DNA from: Pleurocapsa sp. MO_226.B13
GTDB taxonomy: Bacteria; Cyanobacteriota; Cyanobacteriia; Cyanobacteriales; Xenococcaceae
Reading direction: 5' to 3'
Assembly: GCA_030064795.1 (NCBI GenBank)
Contig: JASJEI010000033.1
Coordinates: 1-15,179, forward strand
Length of the DNA stretch: 15,179 nt
Under the pieces are notes generated by a model. The model saw only the letters and a program-made list of their open reading frames with translations. It ran no database searches and was not told the DNA's origin. Every line of letters starts with the position of its first letter. Position 1 is the first letter of the stretch. Both the position numbers and the translations under genes were made by a program. Positions 1-15,179 of this stretch are shown here, piece by piece.

Positions 1-200
1 AGCCAGAGGTTATTGCCCGCCGACCGCCCCAATTGTGAGGGGTAAGCGTGTCAAAGTCCCCAAATTCGTAGGGGCGGTCGGCGAAGGCTGACCAACTTTG
101 ACCAGGTTTTCTCTCGGGGCGACCCCGCGTCCTAAAGGATACCGCTTCGCATATCGACGAGAGGCGCAAGGGAATGCGCCCTTCCCGAAGGGCAATTAGG
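1..200. repeat. Palindrome-rich cyanobacterial intergenic repeat
   Basis: This non-coding stretch is built of inverted repeats. A perfect 13-bp pair is formed by CGCCGACCGCCCC at 18-30 and its complement at 71-83. A GGGG-CGA-CCCC hairpin lies at 116-126. GCCCTTC/GAAGGGC at 178-184 and 187-193 is a third. The phrase CCTAAAGGATACCGCTTCGC (132-151) resembles CCTAAAGGACTCGCTGCGCG in the repeat between two RNA genes at 13307-13326, so both probably belong to one dispersed repeat family. The open frame on the minus strand at 10-195 has repeat-like composition and no recognisable protein, so I do not call it. From 200 to 492 the DNA is AT-rich with one HIP1-like site and no gene. Confidence 0.6.
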
Positions 201-492
201 AAATGATGCTTTTTTTACAGTAGTTTAATTGCTAATTATTTTCAATATGCTTAAAAAGAGCGAATGAAGGAATGACTAATCAATTGTTTTATATCCCAGA
301 ATATCGACATATTCTCATCTGAATGCCAAATTATGCCGATTCTATGTCCACTGCGATCGCATTTACTGTATGATTACTGTACTAAACTAAGCGTTGATTA
401 GATTGTTTAACCGACGCAACACAAATACGGGTTCTAATTTTCACGACTCAGGTAAAATTGCTAAATGAATCCTTGTTGATGAGCAATTTACT

Positions 493-723
493 ATGGAAGA
501 AAAACCGAAAAATTTTAAGGTGGGCGATCGCGTTAAGATAGTCGCCCTCCCTGCCTATATTAAAACCGCAGAACCCATGCCGATGCTGCGTTCCCCCAGT
601 CTCTTAACCGTAGGAGAACAAGGAACGATTATAGATCGTCGTCCTGGGGGTTATTGGGGTATTCGCTTTACTCAAGGAGCTTTTTTACTCGAAAGTCAGT
701 ATATAGAGGCAATTAGTAATTAA
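493..723 (+). CDS. sipA: SipA-like DUF3148 regulatory protein
   Basis: This 76-residue protein matches the small cyanobacterial DUF3148 family typified by SipA, which binds the sensor histidine kinase NblS (Hik33) and modulates high-light and stress signalling. The sequence shows an SH3-like beta-barrel pattern: KVGDRVKIVALPAYIKTAEP near residues 10-29, then LLTVGEQGTIIDRRPGGYWGIRFTQGAFLLESQYIE, where glycine turns alternate with beta strands. The length is normal for the family. The ATG start is the first in frame and is followed at once by an acidic/basic lead-in. The gene ends 48 bp before prfB on the same strand, so co-transcription is possible. The family assignment is from recognition of the sequence; the interaction with NblS is known for the family and inferred here. 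Confidence 0.8.
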   Translation: MEEKPKNFKVGDRVKIVALPAYIKTAEPMPMLRSPSLLTVGEQGTIIDRRPGGYWGIRFTQGAFLLESQYIEAISN

Positions 724-771
724 ACTAATTAAGATGTAGATAGATAATTTAGAGACCACCAATTCCTTAAC

Positions 772-1882
772 ATGGAAGTATCCGAATTAAAACGCCAGAT
801 TGAAACCATATCTCTACACCTGGGTAAAGCTCAGGAGTATCTTTGACCCACCAGCAATCATTGCCAAAGTACAAGATTTAGAGCAAAGAGCAGCACAGCC
901 AGATTTTTGGGATGACCAAGCCACTGCACAAAAGGTTTTACAAGAATTAAACGATCTAAAATCAAATTTGGAGCAATATCAAAGTTGGCAAAGGACTCTA
1001 GAAGACACCAAGGCGATCGCTGAATTACTAGAGTTAGAATCAGACGAGGCATTAGCTACCGAAGCCCAAAATAATCTCGAACAACTAGAAAAAGAGTTGG
1101 AACTCTGGGATCTACAGCAGCTTTTATCTGGTACTTACGATACCAAAGGGGCTGTTTTAACGATTAATGCTGGCGCGGGAGGTACGGACGCACAAGACTG
1201 GGCAGAAATGCTCTTGCGGATGTATACTCGCTGGAGCGAACAAGAGGGCTACAAAGTTCGTTTGGCCGAGTCCTCTCCAGGGGATGAAGCAGGAATTAAA
1301 TCTGCCACCCTAGAAATAGAAGGACGTTATGCCTACGGTTATTTAAAAGGCGAAAAAGGCACGCACCGCTTGGTTAGAATTTCTCCCTTTAATGCCAATG
1401 GCAAACGACAGACTAGCTTTGCGGGGGTAGAGGTAATGCCTAATTTGGAAGATGAAGAACTAGACATAGAAATTCCCGATAAAGATTTAGAAATAAAAAC
1501 TTCCCGTTCTGGTGGTGCAGGGGGACAAAACGTCAACAAAGTAGAAACCGCCGTCCAAATTGTCCATTTACCGACCAAAATCTCTGTTCGCTGTACCGAA
1601 GAGCGATCGCAACTGCAAAACAAAGAAAGGGCAATGGCTCTTTTGAAGGCAAAGTTACTGATCATTGCTGAAGAACAACGAGCGCGAGAAATTGCCGAAA
1701 TCCGTGGTGACATGGTGGAAGCAGCCTGGGGTAATCAGATTCGTAATTATGTCTTTCATCCCTATCAGATGGTTAAAGATCTGCGGACAGAAACCGAAAC
1801 TACCGATGTCAACGACGTGATGGATGGCAATCTTAATGCCTTTATCGAAGCCTATCTGCGCCAAGAAAATCAGCTTGTTTAG
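772..1882 (+). CDS. prfB: Peptide chain release factor 2 (programmed +1 frameshift)
   Basis: RF2 recognises UGA and UAA in the ribosomal A site and triggers peptide release. The gene starts at ATG 772 and reads 24 codons ([24 protein letters not shown]) before an in-frame TGA at 844-846. A +1 shift at CTT-TGA then continues with [12 protein letters not shown] from 845 to the stop at 1880-1882, giving 369 residues, the usual RF2 length. The stop-codon recognition tripeptide SPF falls at residues 204-206 and the catalytic GGQ at 250-252, in [13 protein letters not shown]. The N-terminal domain is helical and coiled-coil-like, with many E, L and Q. A 360-residue reading from TTG 800 is an artefact, because its first 15 residues are in the wrong frame upstream of the shift. 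The gene follows sipA closely. Identification is near certain. Confidence 0.97.
833..847 (+). promoter_or_regulatory. prfB autoregulatory +1 frameshift site
   Basis: A Shine-Dalgarno-like AGGAG (833-837) sits three bases before the slippery CTT TGA C (841-847). This is the canonical bacterial RF2 arrangement. When RF2 is scarce, the UGA is decoded slowly; the internal SD element pulls the ribosome forward one base and full-length RF2 is made. Abundant RF2 terminates at the UGA and yields only a 24-residue peptide. All elements are visible in the sequence; the feedback mechanism is established for the family. Confidence 0.95.
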
Positions 1883-2186
1883 CTTCAACTGAGGTTGGTC
1901 GTTGAAACCTGGGATTTGACGCTCTGGGGGGATTTATAAACAAAAAACTAAACTGAGCGCGATCTAGGGGATTTGGGGACTAATACTTCCCTACCTCCCC
2001 ACTTTAGCGATCGCGTTAACTGGTTCGTGTCTACTACTTTTTTTCCACCCTAAAGGGTAAACTTACGAACCTAATTTTATTCGCTGTTTTGGACAATTGT
2101 TACAAATTGCAAAGTATAATAATCAAACTAGGTCGCTCTATTTTGCGACTTTTTGTCAAACCATTATTTGAGATAAGTATATTTAA
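1883..2186 (+). promoter_or_regulatory. Intergenic region with candidate crtP promoter
   Basis: This gap of about 300 bp contains a HIP1 site near 2006 and a perfect -10 hexamer TATAAT at 2115-2120. That places a start near 2127 and a leader of about 60 nt before crtP. TTGGACA (2089-2095) is a poor -35, about 20 bp from the -10, so the promoter may depend on an activator. No ORF or RNA gene is apparent here. The -10 is seen; its use is inferred. Confidence 0.5.
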
Positions 2187-3605
<1,419 letters not shown>

Positions 3606-3736
3606 TATATCTTGTCTGTTGTTTGTCTTTTATCGGCTAGTCGAGGAAACAATTTTAACTAGTTTGGGCAAGCACAGACAAAGTACATCGCCCTATCTCC
3701 TGCCCTAAACAAGACAGTAACCCCGTTTGCTTCTGA

Positions 3737-4666
3737 ATGTTGCAATTACCAAAATCAAAAACGCAAAAAAATCTAGTCTCGGTAGACGAGGCATATGAAC
3801 TCTGTCGTCAAATTACGGCAGAATACGCCAAGACTTTTTATCTCGGTACTTTATTGATGCCGAAAGAGAAGAGCAAAGCGATTTGGGCAATTTATGCTTG
3901 GTGTCGTCTCACAGACGAACTGGTAGATGGTGAAAAAGCAAAATATACCACTAAAGAAACCTTAATAGAATGGGAACAACAACTAGAGTCTATTTTTGCT
4001 GGGTATCCTATAGCTGATACAGATGTAGCCTTAGTAGATACTATTCAACGCTATCCGATGGGCATTCAACCTTTTCGGGATATGATTGCCGGACAGCGCA
4101 TGGATCTGATTCAAAACCGCTATCAAACCTTTCCAGAATTAGAGCTTTATTGTTATCGGGTTGCTGGTACGGTAGGTTTGATGTCCAATGCTGTTTTGGG
4201 TATTGGCCCAGACAAAAATGGCGTTCCTTGGGAGAAAGACAAACCAATCTACGTACCGACAGAAGAAGCAGTCGCCCTCGGTTTAGCAATGCAGCTGACC
4301 AATATTTTGCGCGATGTCGGAGAAGATCTACAACGCGATCGCATTTATCTTCCCCTCGAAGATCTCCACGCCTTTAACTACACTGAAGCAGACTTAATCG
4401 CTGGAGTCATTGATGACCGTTGGAAAGCGATGATGAAGTTTCAAATCAAACGCGCCAGAGGATATTATCTAAAGGCAGAGAAAGGTATTCGCTATTTGAT
4501 TCGCGATTCTCGTTTGCCAGTTTGGGCTTCTTTGATGCACTATCAGGGGATTCTCAACGAAATTGAGGCTAATAACTACGATGTCTTTAATAAACGAGCT
4601 TTTGTCCCTAAATACAAGAAAATTTTATCGCTTCCTGTTGCCTGGTTGAGAGCGCAGGTACTTTGA
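3737..4666 (+). CDS. crtB: Phytoene synthase
   Basis: CrtB condenses two geranylgeranyl diphosphates head to head, through presqualene-type prephytoene diphosphate, to 15-cis-phytoene, the first committed carotenoid. In the 309-residue protein the first Asp-rich motif is TDELVD (D60 and D64), which binds diphosphate-Mg. The second is NILRDVGEDLQRDRIYLP with D193 and D197, the squalene/phytoene synthase signature. YCYRVAGTVGLM precedes it. Length and motif spacing are normal. It follows crtP and probably shares regulation with it. Downstream, 56 bp after the stop, begins a decayed transposase pointing the opposite way, so the original 3' flank may have been rearranged. Confidence 0.97.
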   Translation: MLQLPKSKTQKNLVSVDEAYELCRQITAEYAKTFYLGTLLMPKEKSKAIWAIYAWCRLTDELVDGEKAKYTTKETLIEWEQQLESIFAGYPIADTDVALVDTIQRYPMGIQPFRDMIAGQRMDLIQNRYQTFPELELYCYRVAGTVGLMSNAVLGIGPDKNGVPWEKDKPIYVPTEEAVALGLAMQLTNILRDVGEDLQRDRIYLPLEDLHAFNYTEADLIAGVIDDRWKAMMKFQIKRARGYYLKAEKGIRYLIRDSRLPVWASLMHYQGILNEIEANNYDVFNKRAFVPKYKKILSLPVAWLRAQVL

Positions 4667-4721
4667 GATTGTTGATGGTTGAGGAGCAATATCGAGTGGG
4701 TATAACTACCTTAGATAAAAG

Positions 4722-5424
4722 TTCTCCATGGATTTTGGCTCGATTCTCCCATGTGGAAGCCTTGGAATCCGCTAAATATAGGAATTCTCTATGACACAGG
4801 ATTTCTGTCATTTTTCTCCATGTTGGTAGATAATCTGACTCATCCCCTCCATTAAAGAGCCAAAGTGGCTCCCAGTAAGGGCATTCCTAATGGGTCTAAC
4901 GTTGCCAACATTTGACGATATTGTCTTAAATCAGGTCGTCGATCTTTACTATACCCAAATTTAATCAGGGATGATTCTTCCTCGCTTTCTGAAATTTGAT
5001 GATATACCGAAAAACTAGTGGTGTCACTTCTCGCTTGTTTGGTGGGTAATTCATAGGCTTTGACCAAATGTTGAGATCATGACATCTCCATCTGAGGGAG
5101 GGTCTCTGTTCTGCCAAGTGTTCTCAATAAATCGCCACAACGGTCATCTGTTGCCTCTTTTTCTCGGATTTCCCATCCAGTTATTCCCTCTAAACTTCTT
5201 TGATGTTCCGAGACCCATTTTTCTAGGCAACATATCCTATGGTCGGCTTCACTCACGATATAGGTCAGTAATAATACCGCTAGTTCTCCATAACTTAGTC
5301 CTTGACGATTGCCATGAGGGAATGCTAGATGATTGTCTATGATTGACGCAACCTTCATTTGTGTTATCCAATAGATAATTAAGGGGAGATCATCTATTCG
5401 TTCTGACTGGATTTGTGACGTAAT
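4722..5424 (-). pseudogene. Degraded, truncated IS1634-type (IS4 superfamily) transposase
   Basis: Reading from 5424 downward gives ITSQIQSERIDDLPLIIYWI, then VASIIDN, HGNRQGLSYGELAVLLLTYIVSEADHR, TGWEIREKEATDDRCGDLLRTLG and, after an in-frame TGA at 5077-5079, QHLVKAYELPTKQARSDTTSFSVYHQ and LIKFGYSKDRRPDLRQYRQMLATLDPLG. These follow the order seen in IS1634-family transposases. The TGA is the only break in that frame down to about 4852. There a frameshift moves the reading to NGGDESDYLPTWRKMTEIL and FLYLADSKASTWENRAKIHGE, and homology stops near 4722. The catalytic C-terminal half is absent and the expected start codon is ATT. So there are at least one nonsense change, one frameshift and a 3' truncation. 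No terminal inverted repeats were found. The element is dead. Confidence 0.82.
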
Positions 5425-5732
5425 TAATCGACTCCTTGTTGCCTAACACTTGACTACATAAGGATTTTAACCTTTTTTGCCCACTGTACCCCTTAGATTT
5501 AAGCGAACGGTGAGTCCTAAACCTAAGAGTATTGGTCAAGCAGACAAATCATCTGTGTTTATCTGTGTCCATCTGTGGACTTTTCTAATAACTCAAATTA
5601 AGTCGATCGCGCCATTACAAAAAAATTTAATATTTGTTTAACAAACAATCTCTGACATTGGATACAACCTTTGTTGGTTAGGCAATTCGAGTTAAGCTGA
5701 AATAACGAGCTAATTATTTAAAAAATTAACCT
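5425..5732. other. Intergenic region with a three-fold ATCTGTG repeat
   Basis: No gene is evident. At 5551-5580 the heptamer ATCTGTG occurs three times at exact 10-bp spacing (ATCTGTGTTT, ATCTGTGTCC, ATCTGTGGAC). An AT-rich segment follows from 5620 to 5730, which may hold the promoter of the next gene, but I see no convincing -35/-10 pair. Confidence 0.45.
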
Positions 5733-6194
5733 ATGAAATTTCGATTTGTGACCATATTGTTGATTTCTGGTCTTTTCTGGCTGAGTAGCTGGATTGTAAC
5801 GCCTTCGGTTATGGCAATGACTTCTATTAAATTAACCAATCTTTCCTACGAGCCTTGCCCTGGTGACGAAGCTAAGGGAAGCGTGACTAGTGGTGATATT
5901 AGACCGGCTGATTGTTACATCATCAAGGGTAAAGCCAAAAATATCTCTGGCAAAACTGTGGTGGATGCCGATGTTTTTGGACGTATCTATGATGCTAATG
6001 ATAATTCGACTTTTGAAAATCGGGGACGCATTGGCACGATCGAAGAAGTTCCCCCAGGAGTAAGTAATTTTGAGATCAGGGTTAGCGTTCCTGCAAATCA
6101 ACCTACTCCCTTAAAATTAAAAAATTTCAAAGCTTCTGGGTTTGCAGGAAAAGTGCGCCCTTACTATTATGACGATTTTGAATATGACAATTAA
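5733..6194 (+). CDS. Small secreted protein of unknown function
   Basis: The product has 153 residues. It begins with a Sec signal peptide: KFR, then a hydrophobic core LLISGLFWLSSWIV, then SVMA with likely cleavage after Ala28. The mature part of about 125 residues looks all-beta: KLTNLSYEPC, YIIKGKAKNISGKTVVDADVFGRIYD, VPPGVSNFEIRVSVP. The phrase on unequal changes to a structure 'with added internal strands' and the pattern of NISGKTV...DADVFGRIYDA resemble FxLYD-type or Ig-like sandwiches, but I cannot assign a family firmly. Cys42 and Cys61 could form a disulfide. The C-terminus is acidic and tyrosine-rich (RPYYYDDFEYDN). It converges with yggT, with stops only 2 bp apart. Periplasmic or thylakoid-lumen location is inferred from the signal peptide. 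Confidence 0.8.
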   Translation: MKFRFVTILLISGLFWLSSWIVTPSVMAMTSIKLTNLSYEPCPGDEAKGSVTSGDIRPADCYIIKGKAKNISGKTVVDADVFGRIYDANDNSTFENRGRIGTIEEVPPGVSNFEIRVSVPANQPTPLKLKNFKASGFAGKVRPYYYDDFEYDN

Positions 6195-6196
6195 GT

Positions 6197-6475
6197 CTAA
6201 AATCCACTGGCAAAAGAAGCAGCAGAGAAGGAAGCCAGTGAGCTTTGGATAAACTGCAATAAAAACAGTGCTAAAATTGCCGAGATATCAATCCCGCCCA
6301 AGGGTGGGATAATTGAACGGAAGATATTTAGGTAGGGGTCGGTAACGGGACTGAGGTAGGAAATGATTTGACCTGCCCATTCCGCAGTCTGAAACCAAGA
6401 CAACAAAATTCTAACAATCAATAATACCCAATAAATATTTAAAAAGCTAATAAGACTAGTAATTATCAGATTCAT
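6197..6475 (-). CDS. YggT family small membrane protein
   Basis: I choose the ATG at 6473-6475, which gives 92 residues, the usual YggT length. Two membrane segments are visible: LIITSLISFLNIYWVLLIVRILLSWF (about 3-28) and ISAILALFLLQFIQSSLASF (about 64-83). Between them lies the family's signature region, SPVTDPYLNIFRSIIPPLGGIDIS. In plastids and cyanobacteria YggT/CCB3 relatives are linked to cytochrome b6 maturation or to membrane organisation; which applies here is unknown. The frame stays open upstream to 6832, but the family homology begins at this ATG. It lies downstream of mnmG on the same strand, 271 bp away. Confidence 0.88.
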   Translation of the reverse strand: MNLIITSLISFLNIYWVLLIVRILLSWFQTAEWAGQIISYLSPVTDPYLNIFRSIIPPLGGIDISAILALFLLQFIQSSLASFSAASFASGF

Positions 6476-6746
6476 AAATTTAATAAACTCCGAAGTCGAT
6501 CGACATTTGTTTGCTGTAGTTATCATAACTTTACTATTAATGTCAATTTGCAAGCCTCGATACTTACACTGACGAAAATGAAAAGTAGACCCAGTAAACA
6601 AATGCAAAGTACTATATGATTCTAGTTCATTTCGCGCTTTTGTTCGGTCGTAGACATCAATGATAAAAAAATTAAATCCTACAAGTTGGCTTTGATAGTT
6701 TGTTTGCTGAGTCTTCAAGGCGATCGCCTTGACTTTAATAGTAGAG
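6476..6746 (-). other. Open reading stretch between mnmG and yggT, status unclear
   Basis: The yggT frame continues without a stop for about 119 codons upstream, the outermost ones overlapping the 3' end of mnmG in another frame. The intervening text looks protein-like (LVGFNFFIIDVYDRTKARNE, LESYSTLHLFTGSTFHFRQC) but I recognise no family. It could be an N-terminal extension of the YggT protein, a separate small or decayed gene, or chance. No good ribosome binding site is visible. I do not call it a CDS. Confidence 0.25.
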
Positions 6747-8660
6747 TTAGCTAACGATTTGTTTTTGTTTTTGGGTTCTAATTTCCAGGTAAACCAACAA
6801 AGCATTAATATCGGCAGGGTTGACACCACCAATACGAGTAGCCTGACCGACAGTCAGGGGTTTAACCTGGTTGAGCTTTTCTCTAGCTTCCATCCGCAAG
6901 GTTTCCACAGTTAGATAGTCTAAATCCTGGGGTAATTTGCGTTGTGTATGACGGCTAATCTGGTCGATTTGGGTTTGCTGACGTTTGATATAGCCAGAAT
7001 ATTTAATATCGATTTCTGCCCCTTCTGCTTCTGCGGTAGTGAGTTCGGGGGTATCCAGACCGTATGATTTCAGATTGGCATAATGAAAACCTGGGCGACG
7101 CAATAATTCTGCTAGAGTAATCGACCCTTTAATTTTTTGTTGCGTCTCTTTGGCGATCGCCACTCCGACGAGATCTTTTTCTTTGATGCGAGTTTCATAG
7201 AGTCTTTCTTTTTCCGCTGCTATTTTGGCTTGTTTGTCGGTATAGAGTTGCCATCGGCGATCGTCAATTAAGCCGATTTCTCTACCCAAAGGAGTCAAAC
7301 GGCGATCGGCATTGTCAGAACGTAAAACTAAACGATATTCCGAGCGACTAGTCAACATTCGATAGGGTTCGCGGAGGTCTTTAGTACAAAGATCGTCAAT
7401 TAATGTACCCAGATAACTTTGTTCGCGAGCAAAAACCACTTCTGGTTCTCCTTTGACAAACCGCACCGCATTAATTCCCGCTACTATGCCTTGGGCTGCT
7501 GCTTCTTCATAACCCGTCGTTCCGTTAATTTGTCCCGCGCTAAATAATCCCTCTACTTTTTTAGTCATTAAGGTTGGATAACACTGAGTGGCGGGTAAAA
7601 AATCATACTCAACTGCATAGGCAGGACGAAGCATGGTGCAGTTTTCCAGACCAGGAAGAGTTCTAAGCATCGCTAACTGGATTTTTTCTGGCAATCCTGT
7701 AGAAAATCCCTGAATATAAAGTTCGGGTATTTCTCTGCCTTCGGGTTCGATAAAGATCTGGTGACTTTCTTTATCCGCAAAGCGAACGATTTTATCTTCA
7801 ATACTGGGACAATAGCGCGGGCCTTTAGCATCAACCCAACCACCATACACGGGAGACAGGTGTAAATTATCCCGAATAATTTTGTGAGTTTCGGCGGTAG
7901 TACGAGTCAAATAGCAGTTCATCTGCTCTCTTTCTACCCAGGCTTCGGGGTCAAAACTAAACCAGCGTAGTTCTTCATCGGGGGGTTGGGGAGTCATTTT
8001 GCTATAGTCAACAGATCGCTTGTCTACCCTGGCAGGCGTACCTGTTTTCAGTCTGCCTGTTTCAAAACCAAGCTGATTGAGGGTTTCAGTTAAACCTGTG
8101 GCTGCAAATTCTCCCGAACGTCCAGCCTCCATAGACTTATTACCGACCCAGATTCTTCCACCTAAAAAAGTGCCAGTCGTCAAAATAACTGCTTTTGCCC
8201 CAAAACAAGTACCGAAGTAGGTTTCGATGCCAATTACCTCATCATTTTTACCCAGCACCAAATCCGTGACCATACCCTCGCGGATGCTCAAATTCTCTTG
8301 ATTTTCTACGATCTGCTTCATAACCACAGCATATTCTCGCTTGTCGGTTTGCGCCCGCAAAGCCCAGACCGCAGGGCCACGAGAAGCATTTAAGACCCGT
8401 TTCTGGAGATAAGTGCGATCGCTTACCTTACCAATTTCTCCTCCTAGAGCATCAACTTCATGAGTTAACTGAGATTTAGCAGGGCCACCCACCGCAGGGT
8501 TACAGGGTTGCCAAGCAATTCTGTCTAGGTTAAGAGTCAGCATCAGGGTGCGACAACCCAATCTTGCTGCTGCCAAAGCAGCTTCACAGCCAGAGTGTCC
8601 GCCACCGACCACGATAATATCAAAAAAGTCTTGAAAATCTACAGGATGAGATACGGTCAT
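6747..8660 (-). CDS. mnmG: tRNA uridine-5-carboxymethylaminomethyl synthase subunit MnmG (GidA)
   Basis: MnmG, with the GTPase MnmE, uses FAD and methylene-tetrahydrofolate to install the (carboxymethyl)aminomethyl group at C5 of the wobble uridine (U34) of several tRNAs. The 637-residue protein has the FAD-binding motif [12 protein letters not shown] (GGGHSG at residues 19-24). It has the first GidA signature [14 protein letters not shown], with the reactive Cys53, and the second, [21 protein letters not shown] further conserved cysteine sits in [12 protein letters not shown]. The C-terminal domain ends [18 protein letters not shown], as is usual. Length is normal, and the ATG start at 8658-8660 is just before the FAD motif. 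mnmE is not in the window. Confidence 0.97.
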
Positions 8661-8846
8661 ATTAATTAACGAGTTTCAATAGGAAAATAATTATCTTAAA
8701 ATTCCTAAAATTACTATAGTGTCTGGCAATTGTGCCTGTAATTAATTGTAACGTAGACAGTTATCCCCATTGATTGTCAAGCCATCAATTCCGTAAAGTC
8801 CCGCTAAATCGAAGATATTTGTAATAACCAATGACCGATGACCAAT

Positions 8847-10178
8847 TTACGATCCGATAACAGTTTTCGCTTTACTCAACTTATTGCGGTCGGGTAATTC
8901 TTTTTCCAAATATCGCAATCTTGGCTCTCGGCAAGCGATCGCCACAACCATTAAATTTAGAATTCCTAATAACACCAGTAACAAAGTCACACCCTGTCCC
9001 ATACCTGTATTAATAAATCTACTAATACTCCTGGCGATGATTCCACCTTCTGCCATGAGAGGATTGAGAACATTATCTACTAAAGGCCCTGCTAGCAAAT
9101 AAGCACAGATAGCCAGCGAGCGCTCTAAAGTTTGCTGGAGGGCAAATACCCTACCTTGTAAATGACTGGGTACTTTGCTTTGCCAAATTGCTTGGTTGCA
9201 GCTAACTATAATCGGTTGAGAAAATAAGTAACCGAAGATTCCAATTGCCAAGACCAAAGTGGAAATTTTTAGACCGCCGACTAAAATAATTATTCCTTGA
9301 AAACCGACAAAGCCAATAATTGCCTTGACACGGTTTTTTGGGCCAGACCAAAGACTCATCAGCACGCTACCTAAAAGCATTCCGCAACCACCAACTGATA
9401 GTACTATTCCTAGTTGTTCGGTCGAATCTGGTTGATAGAGCAAGGGCCACAAGACTACTTCTAGCATTCCCATTGTGAAATAGCTGATGGCAATAAAACA
9501 CACCAAACGAACTAAACCAGGTCGCAGGACAATATAATTCCAGCCAGCAACAGCATCAGATACTACCCGATCGACTACCTTACTTCTTCTTTTGCGAGTA
9601 AATCTTTTGAAATCTGGAAATTTGACGCTTAATAAGCTAATAACAGCAACTATAAAAGTAACAATATCTACAAATAAAATTGTTTTTAAGCCAAAAAACT
9701 TCATCAACATACCTGCGATCGCGGGAGCAGCAATTTTGGCAATTGCAAAGGAAGCTTGTACCATGCCATTGGCGCGACTCAAATTTTTCGCTGGTACTAA
9801 TTGGGCGATCGCTGCGATATAAGCTGGCTGTTGAAAAGCATTGAGGCTGGATGAAATTGTTAATGCTAGATAAATATGCCAAATTGCTAAACTATTTGAC
9901 CCTACCAGAGCTAGTATTACTAGGGTGATCATTCCCGTCCCTAGATCGCTCATAATCATTGCGTAACGGCGATTCCAGCGGTCTACTAACACTCCAGCTA
10001 AAGGTGAAATAATTACCTTTGGCAGATACATAAATAATATAGTTAGGGCAAATTGAGTAATTGTCCCTGTATCTTGATATGTTTGCTCCAAGATCCAAAA
10101 TCCCAAAGCAAATTCTGTCAGTTTAGAACCCAGTAAAGAGATAACTTGCCCAACCCAGACAATAAAGAAAGTTTGCAT
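8847..10178 (-). CDS. MFS transporter, MFS_3/EntS-like
   Basis: The 443-residue product has about 12 hydrophobic segments and the MFS motif A, GVLVDRWNRR, at residues 62-71 between the second and third helices. The opening FFIVWVGQVISLLGSKLTEFALGFWILE is typical of the MFS_3 group, which contains the enterobactin exporter EntS and macrolide efflux proteins. Later landmarks are QQPAYIAAIAQLVPAKNLSRANGM and VPSHLQGRVFALQQT, which are shared by that group. Two halves are separated by a basic cytoplasmic loop, KFPDFKRFTRKRRSKVVDR. Substrate is unknown; export of a small hydrophobic compound or siderophore is likely from the family. The gene stands alone on its strand, 186 bp from mnmG, and may be controlled from the palindrome 76 bp upstream. 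Confidence 0.88.
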   Translation of the reverse strand: MQTFFIVWVGQVISLLGSKLTEFALGFWILEQTYQDTGTITQFALTILFMYLPKVIISPLAGVLVDRWNRRYAMIMSDLGTGMITLVILALVGSNSLAIWHIYLALTISSSLNAFQQPAYIAAIAQLVPAKNLSRANGMVQASFAIAKIAAPAIAGMLMKFFGLKTILFVDIVTFIVAVISLLSVKFPDFKRFTRKRRSKVVDRVVSDAVAGWNYIVLRPGLVRLVCFIAISYFTMGMLEVVLWPLLYQPDSTEQLGIVLSVGGCGMLLGSVLMSLWSGPKNRVKAIIGFVGFQGIIILVGGLKISTLVLAIGIFGYLFSQPIIVSCNQAIWQSKVPSHLQGRVFALQQTLERSLAICAYLLAGPLVDNVLNPLMAEGGIIARSISRFINTGMGQGVTLLLVLLGILNLMVVAIACREPRLRYLEKELPDRNKLSKAKTVIGS

Positions 10179-10825
10179 CTGTTTTTGTATATTTTGTTAG
10201 TCAACATAGAAATAGACGATTTGTGTGTGTGTGGAAGCTGAAAAGTGAATATTTGTATAGACTACAAAGTCTATACAGTGTAGCCGAGAGATTTTTGAAT
10301 GCCAAAAGGCGCGACTAGATTCCGTTCTTCGATTAAATAATTTTCATAGATGATAGATCTATAGGGGCAACTTATGAATCACCCTCTAGAAATATCCTCT
10401 TGGTCTATTTAGTAGGAGTTCAACGTTATGTAGTATGCCTTAAATTTTACGGCTTCACAGGTATTTGTATTTGAGCTACAAAAGACTATGTTAGTATTTC
10501 AGTACTTTCTATCATAGGTTAAATTGCCTAAGACCAACGATTTCCAACCAAGTTTAGTTGAAAACCACCAAGCTTGCTTAACGTTAAACTATTTATAGAT
10601 AGTTTTTAACTCTTTTTTGTTTCGTAATCATGAAATTTTCAATTATGTCTTTCTATAACTGGTCTCTTACTTTATGATGAAGAAGCAATAATTAGGTTTA
10701 ATGATTGATTAAGAAAAGTAATTACCAACTTTAGCGACAAGTGTCGAAACCAAAATAATGTCCAATCTGCTTGAAGGCAACGACATTAATTGAAGTCAGT
10801 GGCGATAAGAGAAAAATAAAGATCG
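10179..10825. other. Long divergent intergenic region
   Basis: This stretch separates the MFS gene (minus) from the DnaJ-TPR gene (plus). It holds a short GT tract (GTGTGTGTGTG, 10222-10232), the palindrome at 10254-10277 and otherwise AT-rich sequence. I find no ORF of note and no recognisable RNA gene. No strong -35/-10 pair was found for either flanking gene. Confidence 0.5.
10254..10277. promoter_or_regulatory. Perfect palindrome, possible operator of the MFS gene
   Basis: TGTATAGACT and its exact complement AGTCTATACA form a 10-bp stem around the 4-nt centre ACAA. The palindrome lies 76 bp upstream of the MFS start codon. It has no T-run on either side, so a terminator is unlikely. The symmetry and position suit a binding site for a dimeric repressor, such as TetR or MarR types that often control exporters, but no such regulator is encoded in this window. 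Confidence 0.35.
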
Positions 10826-12160
10826 ATGGCAAGGGTGGAGAATTACGCGGATAACTACTACTCGACTTTGGGAGTATCCCGAAATGCGACTTCAAAAGAA
10901 ATCAAAATAGCTTTTCGTCGTTTGGCTCGTCAGTATCATCCTGACTTGAACCCAAACGATCCTATTTCAGCTGAGAAATTTAAGCAGATTTCTCAAGCTT
11001 ATGACGTACTATCCGATACAGCGAAACGCCGTCGTTACGATCGCCATGTTTCTTCCCCTCGAAACCAAGCAAAAACTACTCACCGCACTCGGTCAAAGAG
11101 TACCCACTACTATTCTACGCCGAGAACGGCTCAAGAGTATTACCATCGAGGAACTTTACGTACCCAGCACAAAGAATATCGTCAAGCTATAGAAGATTAT
11201 ACAAAAGCAATCGAACTCGATCCCAAATTTATCGATGCTTATCTCAAAAGATGCGAAATGCGCTACAAAATGGGGGATAATCAAGGCGTTTTGGATGATT
11301 GCTACCGAATATTTGGCATCAATCCCAACGTGGCAAAAGCTCATTATTATCAGGGAAGAGCGCGCTATAGTTTGGGTTATACTCAACCAGCGATCGAATC
11401 TTATAATTCGGCGATCGCTCAAGATAATAATTATCCCCAGGCATACTATTATCGAGGCATTGCCTACAAAGAAATATTAGCCGTCTCTTCTGCTGTCAAC
11501 GATCTTAATAGAGCAGCAGAACTTTTTCGTCTCCAAAAAAACTATGAAGCTTATCGTCGTAGCCAAAAAATCATCAACGAACTAACTAAAAATAATCAGC
11601 TCTTTGGTTGGGTTGATAATTTAGTTCACAACTCCCTGATGACCTTGAGTTTTTCCTTCCTCAATCCTGGCGGGGGATTATTACCTGCATTTTCTCGTCT
11701 TAACGGTAAACAATCAAGGCAAGTGGGAGTAATCTACGGACTATTTTCCAGTTTGTGTTTTGTCTGTAGCTATTTTATGACTGGCTTACCTATCGATATA
11801 GCAGTATGGCAATTGTTCTTGATTGGTTTGATTCCTTTTGTCAGTTTTGTGGCTACTGGTAACATTGTGCGTTTCGCGCTACACCATCGTGGTCGCTTTT
11901 CTACTGATGTCTTTATTGCTGGAGTCGCCCTCGCTCCCCTAGCATTTGCCAGTATTTTAATCGGATTTATTCCGCTCTCAGCATTTTCTTTGAGTATTCC
12001 TTTGACACTCTTGGGTCTTTCCTACAGCGCGTTAACTCTCAACGCTGGCTATACCCAATTACTAAATATCAATGAATCAAAAGCTGCTTTGACTGTGGCT
12101 TTGATGTTGGTAATTAATAGTTATGTCTGTTTGTCCTTAATCTCTAGTTTGGTTATTTAG
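10826..12160 (+). CDS. DnaJ-domain protein with TPR repeats and membrane C-terminus
   Basis: The 444-residue protein has three parts. Residues 10-72 are a J-domain ([20 protein letters not shown]..., HPD at 38-40), which would stimulate an Hsp70/DnaK ATPase. A basic, serine-rich linker (about 73-95) leads to three or four TPR units at about 96-230, for example [19 protein letters not shown], with recurring A-x-Y-x-R-G and A-I-x-x-Y patterns that mediate protein contacts. From about 290 to 440 there are four or five hydrophobic segments ([73 protein letters not shown]), so the protein is anchored in a membrane. The Gly/Phe and zinc-finger regions of true DnaJ are missing; this is a class III J-protein. 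The membrane target and client are unknown. It is 414 bp upstream of the RNA array; no functional tie is shown. Confidence 0.85.
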
Positions 12161-12288
12161 ACAGAAACTGCCTTTAAGTGACCTAGATCGACAGGATTTA
12201 GGATAAAAACCTTCTGCGCCTTTGCCCCAAACTAAGCGGGGTAAACGTCTTGGCGAGAGATCTTTTTCAATTTCTGATTACATTTATG
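12161..12288 (+). other. Intergenic region after the DnaJ-TPR gene, possible weak hairpin
   Basis: TTTGCCCC (12221-12228) can pair with GGGGTAAA (12238-12245), with one G-U pair and a 9-nt loop. No U-tract follows, so it would be at best a weak terminator separating the DnaJ-TPR gene from the RNA array. Confidence 0.3.
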
Positions 12289-12317
12289 TTGCAAAAAATA
12301 TTTCCATCGTATATACT
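12289..12317 (+). promoter_or_regulatory. Candidate promoter of the Y RNA array
   Basis: A -35-like TTGCAA (12289-12294, 4 of 6 to consensus) and a -10 TATACT (12312-12317, 5 of 6) are separated by exactly 17 bp. Initiation would fall near 12324, about 250 nt before the first RNA gene, so the transcript would run through the MITE-like palindrome. A second possible -10, TATAAA at 12559-12564 at the very end of that palindrome, is well placed to start at 12571-12575, the 5' end of the first RNA, but lacks a -35. Confidence 0.5.
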
Positions 12318-12411
12318 ACAAAAGTAATCAAAAGTCAGCGATCGTTCAGCAGTCTGAATTAAGGAACAAGGAAAGAGGAGAAAGGAACGAGGATCTCAAA
12401 ACTAAAAACTA

Positions 12412-12561
12412 ATACCAATTTTAAAAAGTAATGAGAGACTTAGTAGGTTGGATTACACGAAGTAAAACCCAATTTAAACCCAATTATTGTTGAGTTTACG
12501 AAACTAAACCCAACCTACAAATACTCTATCGATCTCTCTCACTACTTTAGGAAAATGGTAT
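12412..12561. repeat. MITE-like palindromic element upstream of the RNA array
   Basis: The 150-bp segment is an imperfect palindrome. Its outer arms, starting ATACCAATTTT at 12412 and ending AAAATGGTAT at 12561, match over about 27 bp with roughly 5 mismatches. An inner perfect 9-bp pair, GTAGGTTGG (12443-12451) and CCAACCTAC (12510-12518), encloses ACCCAA/TTGAG-type sequence. This resembles the GTAGGTTGGGTT...AACCCAACCTAC miniature elements common in cyanobacterial genomes. No transposase is present; it would be mobilised in trans. Confidence 0.7.
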
Positions 12562-12574
12562 AAAAACTAATCAT

Positions 12575-12701
12575 GCGATGGTAGCTCAAGAGGTAGAGCA
12601 TCAAAAACATCCTTGTTCAGAACTTATCCCTATGGGGTCGAAGAATTGAGGGTTATCGACTACGGATCGGATGGTTGCAGGTTCGAGTCCTGCCCATCGC
12701 A
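12575..12701 (+). ncRNA. tRNA-like Y RNA, copy 1 (Arg-like anticodon arm kept)
   Basis: The ends form a perfect 7-bp acceptor stem, GCGATGG (12575-12581) with CCATCGC (12694-12700), and A12701 is the discriminator. The D-arm is GCTC/GAGC (12584-12587, 12596-12599) with a GG-containing loop. The T-arm is GCAGG-TTCGAGT-CCTGC (12677-12693). Between them lies the shared hairpin: CCTTGTTC (12611-12618) pairs with 12643-12651, with one bulged U at 12646. ATCCC (12626-12630) pairs with GGGGT (12634-12638) around loop TAT. After it, TCGA-CTACGGA-TCGG (12656-12670) forms a four-pair anticodon-like arm with U33 and triplet ACG. The 127-nt body is too long to be a normal tRNA. I infer a Ro60-binding Y RNA built on a tRNA. 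CCA is not encoded. Confidence 0.82.
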
Positions 12702-12790
12702 TTGTAAAGAATGAGGAGAAAGGAAAGAGGAAACAGGATAAAAAATTGAAAATATCTAAAAATATCTAAAATCTAAAAATCTATAGTCAG

Positions 12791-12912
12791 GCGGTGGTAG
12801 CCAAGTGGTAAGGCAGCATTATCCTTGTTCAAAACTTATCCCAATGGGGTCGAAGAATTGAGGGTTATCGATTGGAGATCGGCGATCGCGGGTTCGATTC
12901 CCGTCCATCGCT
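12791..12912 (+). ncRNA. tRNA-like Y RNA, copy 2
   Basis: Acceptor stem GCGGTGG (12791-12797) pairs with CCATCGC (12905-12911), one G-U, discriminator U at 12912. The D-arm is GCC/GGC (12800-12802, 12812-12814) with loop AAGTGGTAA. The T-arm is GCGGG-TTCGATT-CCCGT (12888-12904), like cyanobacterial tRNA-Gly. The shared hairpin has CCTTGTTC (12823-12830) opposite 12855-12863 with the same bulged U, and ATCCC/GGGGT (12838-12842, 12846-12850) around loop AAT. As in copy 1, the hairpin's end supplies TCGA for a short arm TCGA-TTGGAGA-TCGG (12868-12882), whose centre triplet would be GGA. Ser tRNAs need a long variable arm, which is absent, so normal decoding as Ser is improbable. No CCA is encoded. 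Length is 122 nt. Confidence 0.8.
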
Positions 12913-12988
12913 TTAGAAGCAGAAAAGAAGGAAAAAGGAGGATAAAAAGTAATTGAAGATTAAGAGCTTAAAATCAATAATTAATCGA

Positions 12989-13090
12989 GCGACGGAAGCC
13001 AATTTGGTGGCATTATCCTTGATTCAGAACTCACCCCTGTGGGGTCGAAGAGTTGAGGGTTATCTGGTTCGACTCTAGTCCGTCGCACCA
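12989..13090 (+). ncRNA. tRNA-like Y RNA, copy 3 (no anticodon arm, CCA encoded)
   Basis: The smallest copy, 99 nt plus an encoded CCA (13088-13090). Acceptor GCGACGG (12989-12995) pairs perfectly with CCGTCGC (13080-13086), with discriminator A13087. The D-arm is GCC-AATTTGGT-GGC (12998-13011). The T-loop TTCGACT (13068-13074) is closed by only four pairs (CTGG/CTAG). The shared hairpin replaces the whole anticodon arm and runs straight into the T-stem. Here CCTTGATTC (13017-13025) pairs with GAGTTGAGG (13050-13058) in nine consecutive pairs; the extra A pairs with the U that is bulged in copies 1, 2 and 5. The terminal stem is ACCCC/GGGGT (13033-13037, 13041-13045), loop TGT. This layout, a D-arm, a T-arm and a Ro-type stem, is closest to the described bacterial YrlA RNAs. 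Confidence 0.82.
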
Positions 13091-13106
13091 AATTTAATAT
13101 TAGCAA

Positions 13107-13238
13107 GCGTTGGTAGCTCAGTTTCAACATCTTTGTTCATAGCTTATCCCAATGGGGTCGAAGAGTGAGGGTTATCGGTAAGAGCAGCTAAGTGCATATC
13201 TTAGTGTGTCGTGAGTTCAAGCCTCACCCAACGCACCA
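13107..13238 (+). ncRNA. tRNA-like Y RNA, copy 4 (hairpin in the D-loop, CCA encoded)
   Basis: Acceptor GCGTTGG (13107-13113) pairs perfectly with CCAACGC (13228-13234), followed by A and an encoded CCA (13236-13238). The T-arm GTGAG-TTCAAGC-CTCAC (13211-13227) is perfect. The D-stem is GCTC (13116-13119) with GAGC (13182-13185), but its loop holds the entire shared hairpin between AGTTT and GGTAA. In the hairpin, CTTTGTTC (13131-13138) pairs with GAGTGAGG (13163-13170), with no bulge. ATCCC/GGGGT (13146-13150, 13154-13158) closes on AAT. A separate arm GCTAAG-TGCATAT-CTTAGT (13187-13205) stands where the anticodon arm belongs, but it has 6 pairs and G rather than U at position 33. Only this copy carries the insertion in the D-loop. 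Length is 129 nt plus CCA. Confidence 0.8.
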
Positions 13239-13260
13239 AACATTTATAGCCGTACAAAAT

Positions 13261-13365
13261 TAGGTTAGGACAAGTAAAGTTATTGGTTCGCAAGTAGCAA
13301 GTAGCCCTAAAGGACTCGCTGCGCGTCGCAGTAGCGAGTAGCAAGTTAAAAAATGTCCTAACCTA
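13261..13365. repeat. Inverted-repeat element between RNA copies 4 and 5
   Basis: A perfect 12-bp inverted repeat, TAGGTTAGGACA (13261-13272) and TGTCCTAACCTA (13354-13365), bounds a 105-bp segment. Inside are GTAGCAAGTAG/GAGTAGCAAG direct repeats and CCTAAAGGACTCGCTGCGCG (13307-13326), similar to sequence at 132-151. It looks like a dispersed non-autonomous repeat that landed between two RNA genes. No clear target-site duplication was seen. Confidence 0.6.
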
Positions 13366-13388
13366 TGAACGTACTGCGATATATCTCT

Positions 13389-13524
13389 GGGATGGATGGC
13401 GGAATTGGTAGACGCGATAAACTAAACGCCTTTGTTCGTAGCTTATCCCTCTGGGGTCGAAGAATTGAAGGTTATCGGTATTTATTAACTAAAGTTGTGT
13501 AGGTTCAAATCCTACTCCATCCCC
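13389..13524 (+). ncRNA. tRNA-Leu-like Y RNA, copy 5
   Basis: The 5' half (T, G, GCG-GAATTGGTAGA-CGC at 13397-13415) follows cyanobacterial tRNA-Leu. The acceptor is GGGATGGA (13389-13396) with TCCATCCC (13516-13523), eight pairs rather than seven, and C13524 would be the discriminator. The T-arm is GTAGG-TTCAAAT-CCTAC (13499-13515). GATAAA (13416-13421) pairs with TTTATT (13481-13486) as an anticodon-type stem whose loop is replaced by the shared hairpin. In that hairpin CCTTTGTTC (13429-13437) pairs with 13462-13471 around a bulged U, and ATCCC/GGGGT (13445-13449, 13453-13457) closes on TCT. AACTAAAGTT (13487-13496) could be the remnant of a class II variable arm. No CCA is encoded. Length is 136 nt. 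It cannot decode Leu because no anticodon loop is left. Confidence 0.8.
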
Positions 13525-13583
13525 TGTTTAGTCGATTTGTTTAATTAGATCGACAAACAATCTTGCGAGTATGTTGCTCGCAA
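13525..13583 (+). promoter_or_regulatory. Two hairpins in the leader of the Ro60 gene
   Basis: Hairpin 1 has TGTTT and GTCGAT (13525-13529, 13531-13536) pairing with ATCGAC and AAACA (13549-13559), with one bulged A and a 12-nt AT-rich loop. Hairpin 2 is TTGCGAG (13563-13569) with CTCGCAA (13577-13583), 7-nt loop. They lie between the last RNA gene and the Ro60 ribosome binding site. They could attenuate read-through, stabilise the RNA 3' ends, or mark the processing boundary between RNA array and mRNA. No clean U-tract follows either stem. Confidence 0.45.
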
Positions 13584-13607
13584 CAAATCATTTTGCCTGA
13601 AAAGGCT

Positions 13608-13612
13608 GGAGG
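13608..13612 (+). promoter_or_regulatory. Strong ribosome binding site for the Ro60 gene
   Basis: GGAGG lies four bases before ATG 13617. It decides the start, because the in-frame reading from this ATG begins the protein and the site is the only strong Shine-Dalgarno nearby. Confidence 0.8.
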
Positions 13613-13616
13613 TAAG

Positions 13617-15179
13617 ATGAATTACCGTTTTTTTACTAACAAGAATCAAACACCTCAAAATCAAGCCATTCCAGGACGCGAAGCGGAAATGATCCCAGGA
13701 CGTTCTGGTGGCTATATGTTCGAGGCCGATCTTTGGCAAATTCTGCGTCGTTGCTTGTTAATTGGTACGGCGCAAAGTACCTACTATGCCAATAAAAGAG
13801 AATTGACCGATGATTTTATCGCTACTGTCAAAAAAGCGATCGCATCCGATCCTAGTCGTGTAGCCAAGGAAATTGTCTACGCTAGTGATGGACGTTCGAT
13901 AAATAACAGCGCACCAATTTTAGCTTTGGTATTGCTTTCTCTGGGAAGTACATCAGCAGCAAAACAAGCATTTCGAGAAATCTTTCCCCAGGTAGTTCGT
14001 ACTGGAAGTCATTTTTATGAATGGTTAAGTTACACCAAATCTTTGCGGGGTTTTGGCAAGATAATTAAAGAAGTAGGTACGGCTTGGCTGTCGAGAGAAG
14101 ACGTTAAAGGTTTAGCCTATCAACTTTTGAAGTATCAACAACGTCATGGCTTTAGTAACCGTGATGCCTTGAGACTATTTCATGTCAAACCAGCAACCGA
14201 AGAACACGATCGCCTTTATGATTGGGTAGTCAATGGTTGGTCGGAATTACCCGAACAAATTCCTTCAACCGCACTAGCACAAATCTGGTGGTACGAATGG
14301 CTAAAACGTCATCCCGAAGCCACTCATCGAGCGATCGCCGAAGGAAAATTAACTCATGAAATGGCTGCCCCTGTAGGTAATATGGATCGTCAAGCATGGC
14401 AGTTATTGTTTGAAACCATGCCCATTGGTGCAATGCTGCGTAATTTGGGTTCATTAACTCAATTGGAAGTGTTGCGAGTTGATAGTACTCGTAATTTAAA
14501 GCGAGTAAAAGCGGTTTTGAATAATCAAAGCTACCTGCGAAAAGGTCGCATTCACCCTATCGATGTTCTTAAGGCGTTAAAAACCTATTCTAGTGGCGGT
14601 AAAATCGGACGCAGCCAAAAAAACTGGACTCCCATTCCCCGTATTGTCGATATCTTGGAAAAAACTTTGGAACTATCTTTTAAGGTAGTCAAGCCAACCA
14701 ACAAGGTATTTCTTCATGCGGTAGATATTTCTAGTTCGATGTCTTATGGTGTAGTCGATTCAGTAGGATTAAGCTGCTGTGAAATTGCCACGGCAATGTC
14801 TTTGGTAACGGCAAAGGCAGAAAAAAACTATGCTATTCGCGGTTTTTCGACCAAATTTGTCGATTTAGGGATTACCAGTCGCGACTCATTCACTTCTGCC
14901 CTCAAAAAAGCCAGCAATCAAAATTTTGGTGGTACAGATGCCAGTGTTGCTTATGATTGGGCAATTAAGCATAAATTTAAAGCAGACGTTATTTGTTTTT
15001 GGACAGATAATGAAAGTTGGGCGGGAAGAAAACATCCCGCACAAGCTTTAAAAGAATATCGCCGTAAAGTCAATCCCAATGCGAAAGCAGTATATATCAC
15101 CCTTGCACCTTATAACATTACCTTAGTCGATCCTCAAGATAACAATTCTTGGGATTTAGCGGGTTTCGATCCTGGTACT
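13617..15179 (+). CDS. rsr: Ro60/TROVE-domain RNA-binding protein (3' end beyond window)
   Basis: The frame is open for 521 codons to the window edge, which is close to the full length of Ro60 proteins (about 530). Ro60 is a ring of HEAT-like repeats plus a vWA-type domain. It binds Y RNAs on its outer surface and the single-stranded ends of misfolded RNAs in its central hole. In bacteria it works with 3'-5' exonucleases in RNA maturation, decay and stress survival. Here the TROVE part spans about 30-360 (GGYMFEADLWQILRRCLLIG, LSREDVKGLAYQLLKYQQRH, GFSNRDALRLFHVKP). The C-terminal domain has an intact MIDAS: DISSS at 370-374, T440 in FGGTDAS and D464 in WTDNES. The start follows a strong GGAGG. 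Five Y RNA-like genes stand directly upstream on the same strand, as Y RNA genes often adjoin Ro60 in bacteria. Confidence 0.95.
   Translation, partial: MNYRFFTNKNQTPQNQAIPGREAEMIPGRSGGYMFEADLWQILRRCLLIGTAQSTYYANKRELTDDFIATVKKAIASDPSRVAKEIVYASDGRSINNSAPILALVLLSLGSTSAAKQAFREIFPQVVRTGSHFYEWLSYTKSLRGFGKIIKEVGTAWLSREDVKGLAYQLLKYQQRHGFSNRDALRLFHVKPATEEHDRLYDWVVNGWSELPEQIPSTALAQIWWYEWLKRHPEATHRAIAEGKLTHEMAAPVGNMDRQAWQLLFETMPIGAMLRNLGSLTQLEVLRVDSTRNLKRVKAVLNNQSYLRKGRIHPIDVLKALKTYSSGGKIGRSQKNWTPIPRIVDILEKTLELSFKVVKPTNKVFLHAVDISSSMSYGVVDSVGLSCCEIATAMSLVTAKAEKNYAIRGFSTKFVDLGITSRDSFTSALKKASNQNFGGTDASVAYDWAIKHKFKADVICFWTDNESWAGRKHPAQALKEYRRKVNPNAKAVYITLAPYNITLVDPQDNNSWDLAGFDPGT

Follow-up and report, generated by a model that had tools for sequence, protein, structure and literature searches.

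Tandem tRNA-like units with a Y-type hairpin beside cyanobacterial Ro60 genes: probable Ro60-bound RNAs in an order permuted relative to YrlA

A tandem array upstream of Ro60 in Pleurocapsa

We analysed a 15,179 nt stretch of DNA from Pleurocapsa sp. MO_226.B13 (contig JASJEI010000033.1, positions 1–15,179; hereafter the window), in which five consecutive RNA units spanning positions 12575–13524, all on the plus strand, end 92 bp before the start of a Ro60 gene at position 13617 (Table 1). Each unit holds a hairpin of about 50 nt between the two halves of a tRNA-like body; most likely these are Ro60-tethered tRNA mimics, for which we suggest the name Y-tRNAs. The window is cyanobacterial, its encoded Ro60 being 88% identical to a protein of a Pleurocapsa metagenome-assembled genome. 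This protein combines the TROVE ring with a vWA domain, as found by Pfam matches and by alignment along nearly its entire available length to the PDB entries of Xenopus Ro (2.5e-71) and Deinococcus Rsr (9.3e-71). It contains a DISSS motif, which corresponds to the metal ion-dependent adhesion site (MIDAS), and it retains the residues aligned with K170, R174 and H187 of Xenopus Ro60 (positions counted by hand), which presumably take part in Y RNA binding.

An earlier note on this DNA had described a five-unit array with a shared hairpin in front of Ro60, and this was confirmed by the sequence, by a hairpin model (R1, trained on 38 hairpins, five from the window and 33 from relatives), by the Rfam tRNA model and by hairpin excision compared with controls. 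Complementary 7-nt acceptor halves flank the hairpins in all five copies as read from the sequence, and a script recovered those of copies 1, 2, 4 and 5. With the hairpin removed, ARAGORN called tRNA-Arg(acg) for copy 1 (score 127.5), tRNA-Ser(gga) for copy 2 (121.1) and tRNA-Met(cat) for copy 4 (110.8), while copy 5 scored 115.5. Two of the five nearly complete tRNA bodies of the earlier note need correction: the anticodon arm is missing from copy 3, its hairpin bridging D-arm and T-arm, and the hairpin of copy 4 sits within the D-loop. For copy 3, ARAGORN returned no tRNA after excision; its minimum free energy (MFE) fold, from a stretch begun one base inside, showed acceptor, D-arm, hairpin and T-arm.

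On the intact window, the Rfam tRNA model matched copies 2 (40.0 bits) and 5 (41.7 bits, E 3.1e-7) above its cut-off with the hairpin as an insertion and, with a score under the cut-off (18.7 bits), a portion of copy 1; tRNA was the only meaningful Rfam family, the remaining matches to E 10 being chance-like. Plain ARAGORN called no tRNA in the window, and its intron mode, run at two settings, called copies 1, 2 and 5 at both, with differing anticodons. Between copies 4 and 5 (13236–13390) lies an imperfect inverted repeat with 37-nt arms that are 73% complementary.

Table 1. Features of the Ro60 locus in the window
Feature	Position	Strand	Elements	Support
Y-tRNA copy 1	12575–12701	+	Acceptor halves GCGATGG/CCATCGC, D-arm, anticodon stem with hairpin in its 5′ strand, 3-bp mini-arm (loop CTACGGA, ACG at anticodon position), T-arm	
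Y-like hairpin, copy 1	12608–12658	+		R1 68.2 bits, E 2.3e-14
Y-tRNA copy 2	12791–12912	+	Acceptor halves GCGGTGG/CCATCGC (one G-U), D-arm, anticodon stem with hairpin in its 5′ strand, loop TTGGAGA (GGA at anticodon position), T-arm	
Y-like hairpin, copy 2	12820–12870	+		R1 68.5 bits
Y-tRNA copy 3	12989–13090	+	Acceptor halves GCGACGG/CCGTCGC, D-arm, hairpin, T-arm, encoded ACCA	Sequence
Y-like hairpin, copy 3	13014–13065	+		R1 52.7 bits
Y-tRNA copy 4	13107–13238	+	Acceptor halves GCGTTGG/CCAACGC, hairpin within D-loop, anticodon arm CTAAG-TGCATAT-CTTAG, T-arm, encoded ACCA	
Y-like hairpin, copy 4	13128–13177	+		R1 61.2 bits
Y-tRNA copy 5	13390–13524	+	Acceptor halves GGATGGA/TCCATCC, Leu-like body (by eye), hairpin in anticodon-loop region, T-arm	
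Y-like hairpin, copy 5	13427–13477	+		R1 62.2 bits
Ro60 orthologue (TROVE + Ro60 vWA)	13617–15179	+	Reaches window end	Pfam vWA_Ro60 1.9e-38, TROVE 1.6e-15

The hairpin accompanies Ro60 in cyanobacteria

When genome contigs were scanned for matches to the Ro60 protein, 161 stretches were confirmed, of which we used the best 80, all cyanobacterial by title and two of them (L038 and L066) stemming from one chromosome. Searching these loci and the window with the hairpin profile (nhmmer, E ≤ 0.01) yielded 313 matches, 1 to 11 per source with matches, every one of them on the Ro60 strand. The window and 79 of the 80 loci were represented, L044 being the sole locus without a match. Upstream of Ro60 lay 263 matches (254 within 1.5 kb) and downstream 50 (all within 400 nt), with none inside the gene; a strict regular expression found the hairpin in 46 of the 80 loci. 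What the earlier note regarded as an unusual expansion is thus multi-copy as described, but not peculiar to one genome.

In addition, 386 cyanobacterial genomes were searched whole, the best 15 candidates per genome being scored under strict filters, so that weak copies may escape; the model came from Ro60-linked copies, yet the scan could match anywhere. Hairpins were found in 33 genomes, Ro60 matches in 37 and both in 32, and the hairpin was present in every one of the 32 genomes whose Ro60 is full-length and ≥69% identical. Among the candidates scored, the matches clustered at one locus per genome, with the exception of genome G144 with two sites. The earlier note had named in advance an outcome that would speak against its idea, namely the hairpin recurring as a generic repeat where Ro60 is absent; only one of the 349 Ro60-less genomes (G386) had a match, which was weak (32 bits) and degenerate and from which no tRNA body was recovered. 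This degenerate hairpin lies at L115 1134–1182 in a genome whose RtcB match is interrupted by stops, and it is possibly a relic. The second site of G144 (L116, ~1062–1190, minus strand) lies away from Ro60, and its Y hairpin apparently interrupts the 3′ half of the acceptor stem in a tRNA-like body.

The hairpin itself is a conserved bulged stem with the motif CGAAG...GUUAUC, as in Y RNAs. Across 38 copies, 93.0% of the alignment cells were paired, and the covariation of 0.339 exceeded that of shuffled alignments (0.242; reached in 0 of 500) and of slid partners (at most 0.157). One pair of the lower stem alternates between G-C (24 copies) and A-U (14), and one of the upper stem between C-G (26), U-A (8) and U-G (4). 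Together, linkage, co-occurrence and covariation strongly support the proposal of the earlier note that these tRNA bodies with a shared, putatively Ro-binding stem are Ro60 ligands, the binding as such being predicted from comparison of sequences.

tRNA-like bodies around the hairpin

In the excision test, the flanks of each hairpin were joined using 170 end choices per copy, and an ARAGORN tRNA spanning the join was required. Such a tRNA appeared at 215 of the 313 copies, and 158 scored ≥115. At any score, random places gave 4 and 1 of 313 and shuffled flanks twice 0 of 313; at a score of ≥115, cuts shifted by −20, +20, −30 and +30 nt gave 24, 3, 0 and 1, random places 1 and 0, and shuffled flanks 0. 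At least one copy scoring ≥115 was present in 73 of the 80 loci, and at least one with both T-arm and D-arm motifs in 69. Independently of ARAGORN, a D-arm motif before and a T-arm motif after the hairpin were detected at 163 of 313 copies vs 1 of 313 random places. The join could be parsed in 134 of the 158 high-scoring copies; 110 of these have it between 27|28 and 29|30, around 28|29 on the 5′ side of the anticodon stem, and the others in the D-loop, the anticodon loop or elsewhere. Units selected by ARAGORN have the D-loop GG and T54T55C56 in 154 of 155 cases each, and G-1 together with C73 in 127 of 182. The G-1:C73 pair is a feature of tRNA-His.

In an alignment of whole units (48 copies, 35 pairs), 95.3% of the cells were paired, covariation was 0.453 vs 0.189 after shuffling (0 of 500) and at most 0.112 with slid partners, and 26 pairs had changes on both sides vs 17.4 after shuffling (0 of 500). 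Across the hairpin, the anticodon stem is closed by pairs 27-43 and 28-42, and 42 of the 48 copies formed both (mean 18 and maximum 27 in 2000 shuffles). These rows were chosen via ARAGORN and a perfect mini-arm (with window copy 2 included manually and 2 of 49 listed units dropped), so that the tRNA pairing is inflated to some degree. On such ARAGORN-selected rows, the acceptor, D and T arms covary as in tRNA, and the upstream copies share with YrlA a tRNA-like module that includes both a D-arm and a T-arm.

An anticodon-type loop with free triplets

Right after GUUAUC, the sequence CGN, seven bases and N′CG followed with all three pairs in 99 of 307 usable copies, compared with 44 in a control slid by +2 and 2 to 20 in the others. 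Position 33 of these perfect mini-arms was U in 98 of 99 cases (38 of 39 distinct arms) and position 37 a purine in 38 of 39 distinct arms, while positions 34–36 showed all four bases. ARAGORN may favour U33, but the raw mini-arm count is independent of it.

These loops and the good tRNAs obtained at many copies by excision would also suit a reading as intron-bearing decoding tRNAs, in which the hairpin is spliced out and the halves are ligated, e.g., by RtcB, into working tRNAs. RtcB occurred in all 32 Ro60 genomes vs 13 of 32 others, a weak association because the comparison set was hand-picked and includes many small genomes, and an excerpt of one study describes a joint rise of TROVE and RtcB transcripts (PMC11423583). 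The units resemble tRNAs (RF00005, including intron-bearing ones) in acceptor, D-arm and T-arm, but they carry a 50-nt Ro60-linked hairpin that is a conserved Y-type element, frequent G-1:C73, and unusable or mismatched triplets: in high-scoring units, 40 of 153 triplets begin with A without being ACG and 2 of 153 would read stops. Copy 3, which lacks an anticodon arm, and copy 4 with its hairpin in the D-loop also speak against this reading. Furthermore, all three parsed copies of genome G001 have a triplet at odds with the ordinary tRNA closest to their body (TCC nearest to tRNA-Ala and tRNA-Val, 77%; TGG to tRNA-Arg, 68%; CGT to tRNA-Leu, 66%), and ordinary tRNAs already cover all 20 amino acids there (69 ARAGORN genes in 43 stretches). 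What we found in the units was thus not a bacterially used anticodon matching the body, as a decoding tRNA would have, and we regard the intron explanation as improbable. Given the free triplets, the A34 and stop triplets, the mismatch with the bodies and the full ordinary tRNA set, the anticodon-type loop looks to be kept as a loop and not as a decoder.

The ordinary tRNA genes of G001 include a dense array far from Ro60 (L131, C1:4301600–4304400), and one of the tRNAs listed by ARAGORN for G001 has a CTA anticodon. RtcB matches were split within one long open frame, in an intein-like manner, in eight genomes (G102, G144, G192, G230, G279, G309, G377 and G383).

A circular permutation of YrlA

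YrlA RNA (Rfam RF02553) has been reported from Salmonella, Mycobacterium smegmatis and phages. It shares with the cyanobacterial units the link to Ro60, the Y stem, the T-arm, the D-arm and an acceptor-like stem, whereas the order of these elements differs. The Rfam consensus runs from the 5′ strand of the Y stem (Y5′) over T-arm, acceptor strand, loop, acceptor strand and D-arm to the 3′ strand (Y3′), while the cyanobacterial unit reads acceptor, D-arm, Y3′, short loop, Y5′, T-arm and acceptor. According to an excerpt of PMC8394870, the ends of YrlA pair with each other to make the Y stem. Accordingly, a loop shuts the acceptor in YrlA, whereas in the units the acceptor halves are outermost and the short loop shuts the Y stem; the units are also multi-copy, and many have an anticodon-type loop. 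Judged on gene order, they do not share the YrlA traits of ends pairing as the Ro60-binding stem and of a T-arm preceding the D-arm. By its element order, the cyanobacterial unit is a circular permutation of YrlA with open tRNA ends.

The Rfam YrlA and Y RNA models, proposed in the earlier note as a check, matched nothing in the window (YrlA to E 10), which for YrlA is expected because the order is permuted; nor was an ordinary YrlA found in genome G001, which carries the permuted form. Since a permuted order in a tandem array means that the sequence from Y5′ of one copy through Y3′ of the next reads in YrlA order, the YrlA model could match across adjacent copies, and it did so, in that register, in 4 of 6 loci searched (L003 4766–4886 with E 1.8e-5; L010, L041 and L118 weaker, E 0.006–0.01). 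These matches reached 31.0–40.5 bits, under the Rfam gathering score of 69. Elements in YrlA order were seen by eye at the Ro60 loci of three phages (L119–L121) and of one divergent Ro60 (L114), and the YrlA model gave matches below its cut-off in L121 (E 5.6e-6), L123 (2.3e-4) and L120 (0.043). Between the YrlA and Y-tRNA forms, a natural route would lead through tandem duplication and a subsequent shift of register.

The same matches allow the explanation that the working RNAs are ordinary YrlA spanning neighbouring copies, from the Y5′ of one to the Y3′ of the next, and indeed, where the stems of neighbouring copies differ (96 cases), the acceptor halves of adjacent copies still form 6 of the 7 pairs in 54. 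However, full pairing (7 of 7) was found within the unit in 180 of 182 cases, although ARAGORN selection demands pairing, vs 9 of 96 with the next copy. This difference argues that the unit and not the cross-copy form is what works. Moreover, 7 of the 80 sources with matches hold a single hairpin (some of these are contig ends), and the window gave no YrlA match to E 10, so that we assign the cross-copy form a low probability. That the hairpin is a small mobile repeat in tRNA-like pseudogenes without a bond to Ro60 is largely refuted and hardly credible: its insertion points do vary (the stem or the loop of the anticodon arm, the D-loop and, in L116, which is away from Ro60, apparently the acceptor strand on the 3′ side), but among the best 15 candidates scored per genome it stays at one locus in all hairpin-bearing genomes except G144, 32 of these 33 genomes have Ro60, all 313 copies in the Ro60 loci lie on one strand and the stems covary.

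Two further known systems are related. Metazoan Y RNAs have the motif GGUCCGAAG...GUUAUC. The likeness noted earlier between the conserved strands of the units and this motif stands, with a similar GGUCCGAAG...GUUAUC and a bulged stem, but the strands occur in reverse order, the loop lies at the opposite end and the units add a tRNA body. Permuted tRNA and transfer-messenger RNA (tmRNA) genes are likewise circular permutations of tRNA-like RNA; here, however, the permuted relative is a Y RNA, and tandem copies display both registers simultaneously.

Divergent and neighbouring loci

At a divergent Ro60 in L111, a weak permuted unit (23 bits) lies inside an array of 12 ordinary tRNAs called by ARAGORN, and the YrlA-ordered elements of L114 stand beside 17 ordinary tRNA genes, again by ARAGORN. 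In L113, the Y-type stem-loops seen by eye lack a tRNA module. Weak matches to RF01656 (nematode stem-bulge RNA) fell on bacterial or phage Y elements by Ro60 in L113 (4231–4296 and 4371–4436, minus strand) and L121 (2262–2389). On plasmid pAQ7 of the laboratory strain Picosynechococcus PCC 7002 (L118, 2542–2944), three Y-tRNA-like units lie between phnC and the TROVE gene, one with a clear hairpin (43.0 bits) and two with weaker ones (20.4 and 12.9 bits); the CGAAG motif is replaced by CGCUG in two units and by CGCAG in the third. In Nostoc-type loci just 3′ of Ro60 (e.g., L022, ~7648–7775), the hairpin replaces the D-arm and is followed by a small arm and the T-arm (by eye). A search for viral contigs as hosts with one pattern returned four contigs, two of which matched the hairpin model at about E 0.01; the two stretches inspected (L126 and L129) did not look unit-like and were taken as chance, and a longer pattern found no viral contig.

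Discussion

Our results point to units that are RNAs bound by the neighbouring Ro60, consisting of a tRNA-like body with a Y-type hairpin in its anticodon region or D-loop and representing a circular permutation of YrlA; we put the probability of this reading at roughly 0.8. Beyond the earlier note, the analysis adds the wider distribution, the permutation relative to YrlA and the retention of U33 and purine 37 while the triplet varies.

Several observations weigh against it. The five other Ro60 genomes (four with divergent Ro60 at 33–37% identity, one with a fragment), to which L111, L113 and L114 belong, had no hairpin match in the scan of 386 genomes. Excision recovered no spanning tRNA at 98 of 313 copies, and at any score, cuts shifted by −20, +20, −30 and +30 nt still gave tRNAs at 187, 186, 73 and 52 of 313; because shifted cuts also yield many low-scoring tRNAs, it is the score and not the mere call that separates real excision from the controls. 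Downstream copies make poor tRNAs: 157 of the 158 copies scoring ≥115 come from the 263 upstream ones and one from the 50 downstream, and the D-arm motif was missing in 45 of 46 downstream copies (present in 1 of 46). A perfect 3-bp anticodon mini-arm was absent from 208 of the 307 usable copies, and CCA is encoded in only 34 of 182 units. For the hairpin alone, neither pairs with changes on both sides (5 vs 4.6 shuffled; 326 of 500) nor further pair types (17 vs 18.9; 485 of 500) rose above shuffles, and the innermost lower-stem pair was open in 19 of 38 copies. Promoter-like sites were not enriched (2 found vs 2.9 expected, not above shuffles). Single-sequence folding gave unremarkable stabilities for the five units (z −1.89, −0.88, −1.42, −1.57 and +0.34) and for the hairpins alone (z −1.63 to +0.77), and single-sequence MFE folding was dropped as support for the units, being weak and inconsistent.

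If the units are Ro60-bound tRNA mimics, they would be cut out of the array as tRNAs are, by RNase P and an enzyme that processes tRNA 3′ ends, and Ro60 would grip the Y hairpin, for which the residues at the positions of Xenopus K170, R174 and H187 are kept. The tRNA-shaped body on the Ro60 ring would then serve as an effector module that gates the ring and would dock an RNA-processing partner, possibly PNPase by analogy with the Deinococcus RYPER, or tRNA enzymes, probably acting during translation or RNA-damage stress. In Deinococcus, as excerpts of PMC8394870 and PMC7790460 describe, Y RNA tethers Rsr to PNPase. An excerpt of PMC7790460 further suggests inhibition of an anticodon nuclease as a possible role for the tRNA-like portion of YrlA. 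With the anticodon-type loops retained here, that idea grows into a more speculative one, which we consider rather unlikely: the array might be a Ro60-mounted panel of anticodon baits, whose U33/purine-37 loops with free triplets would be struck or recognised by anticodon nucleases or damaged-tRNA machinery, with Ro60 and PNPase or RtcB answering.

Y RNAs with tRNA-like modules are already known, and we therefore count the units as a variant of bacterial Y RNA; they stand apart by their permuted order and array arrangement, by an acceptor stem that lies outermost and by the loops they retain. We found no account of this arrangement in the literature searched, a search that left central Y RNA papers outside, so that a prior description is possible.

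Bacterial Y RNA genes would thus come in two circularly permuted forms, of which one amounts in essence to a tRNA fitted with a Ro60 handle. The two permutations fit a tRNA origin of YrlA-type RNAs, with tandem copies read in the other register as the route. A prediction is that the partners of Ro60 would meet a mature tRNA-like end, which is absent from YrlA. If the bait idea were true, one protein would sense which tRNA-cutting attack is happening. In any case, the kept anticodon-type loops with their free triplets open the purpose of the tRNA-like module of Y RNAs to direct testing in a laboratory strain, Picosynechococcus PCC 7002.

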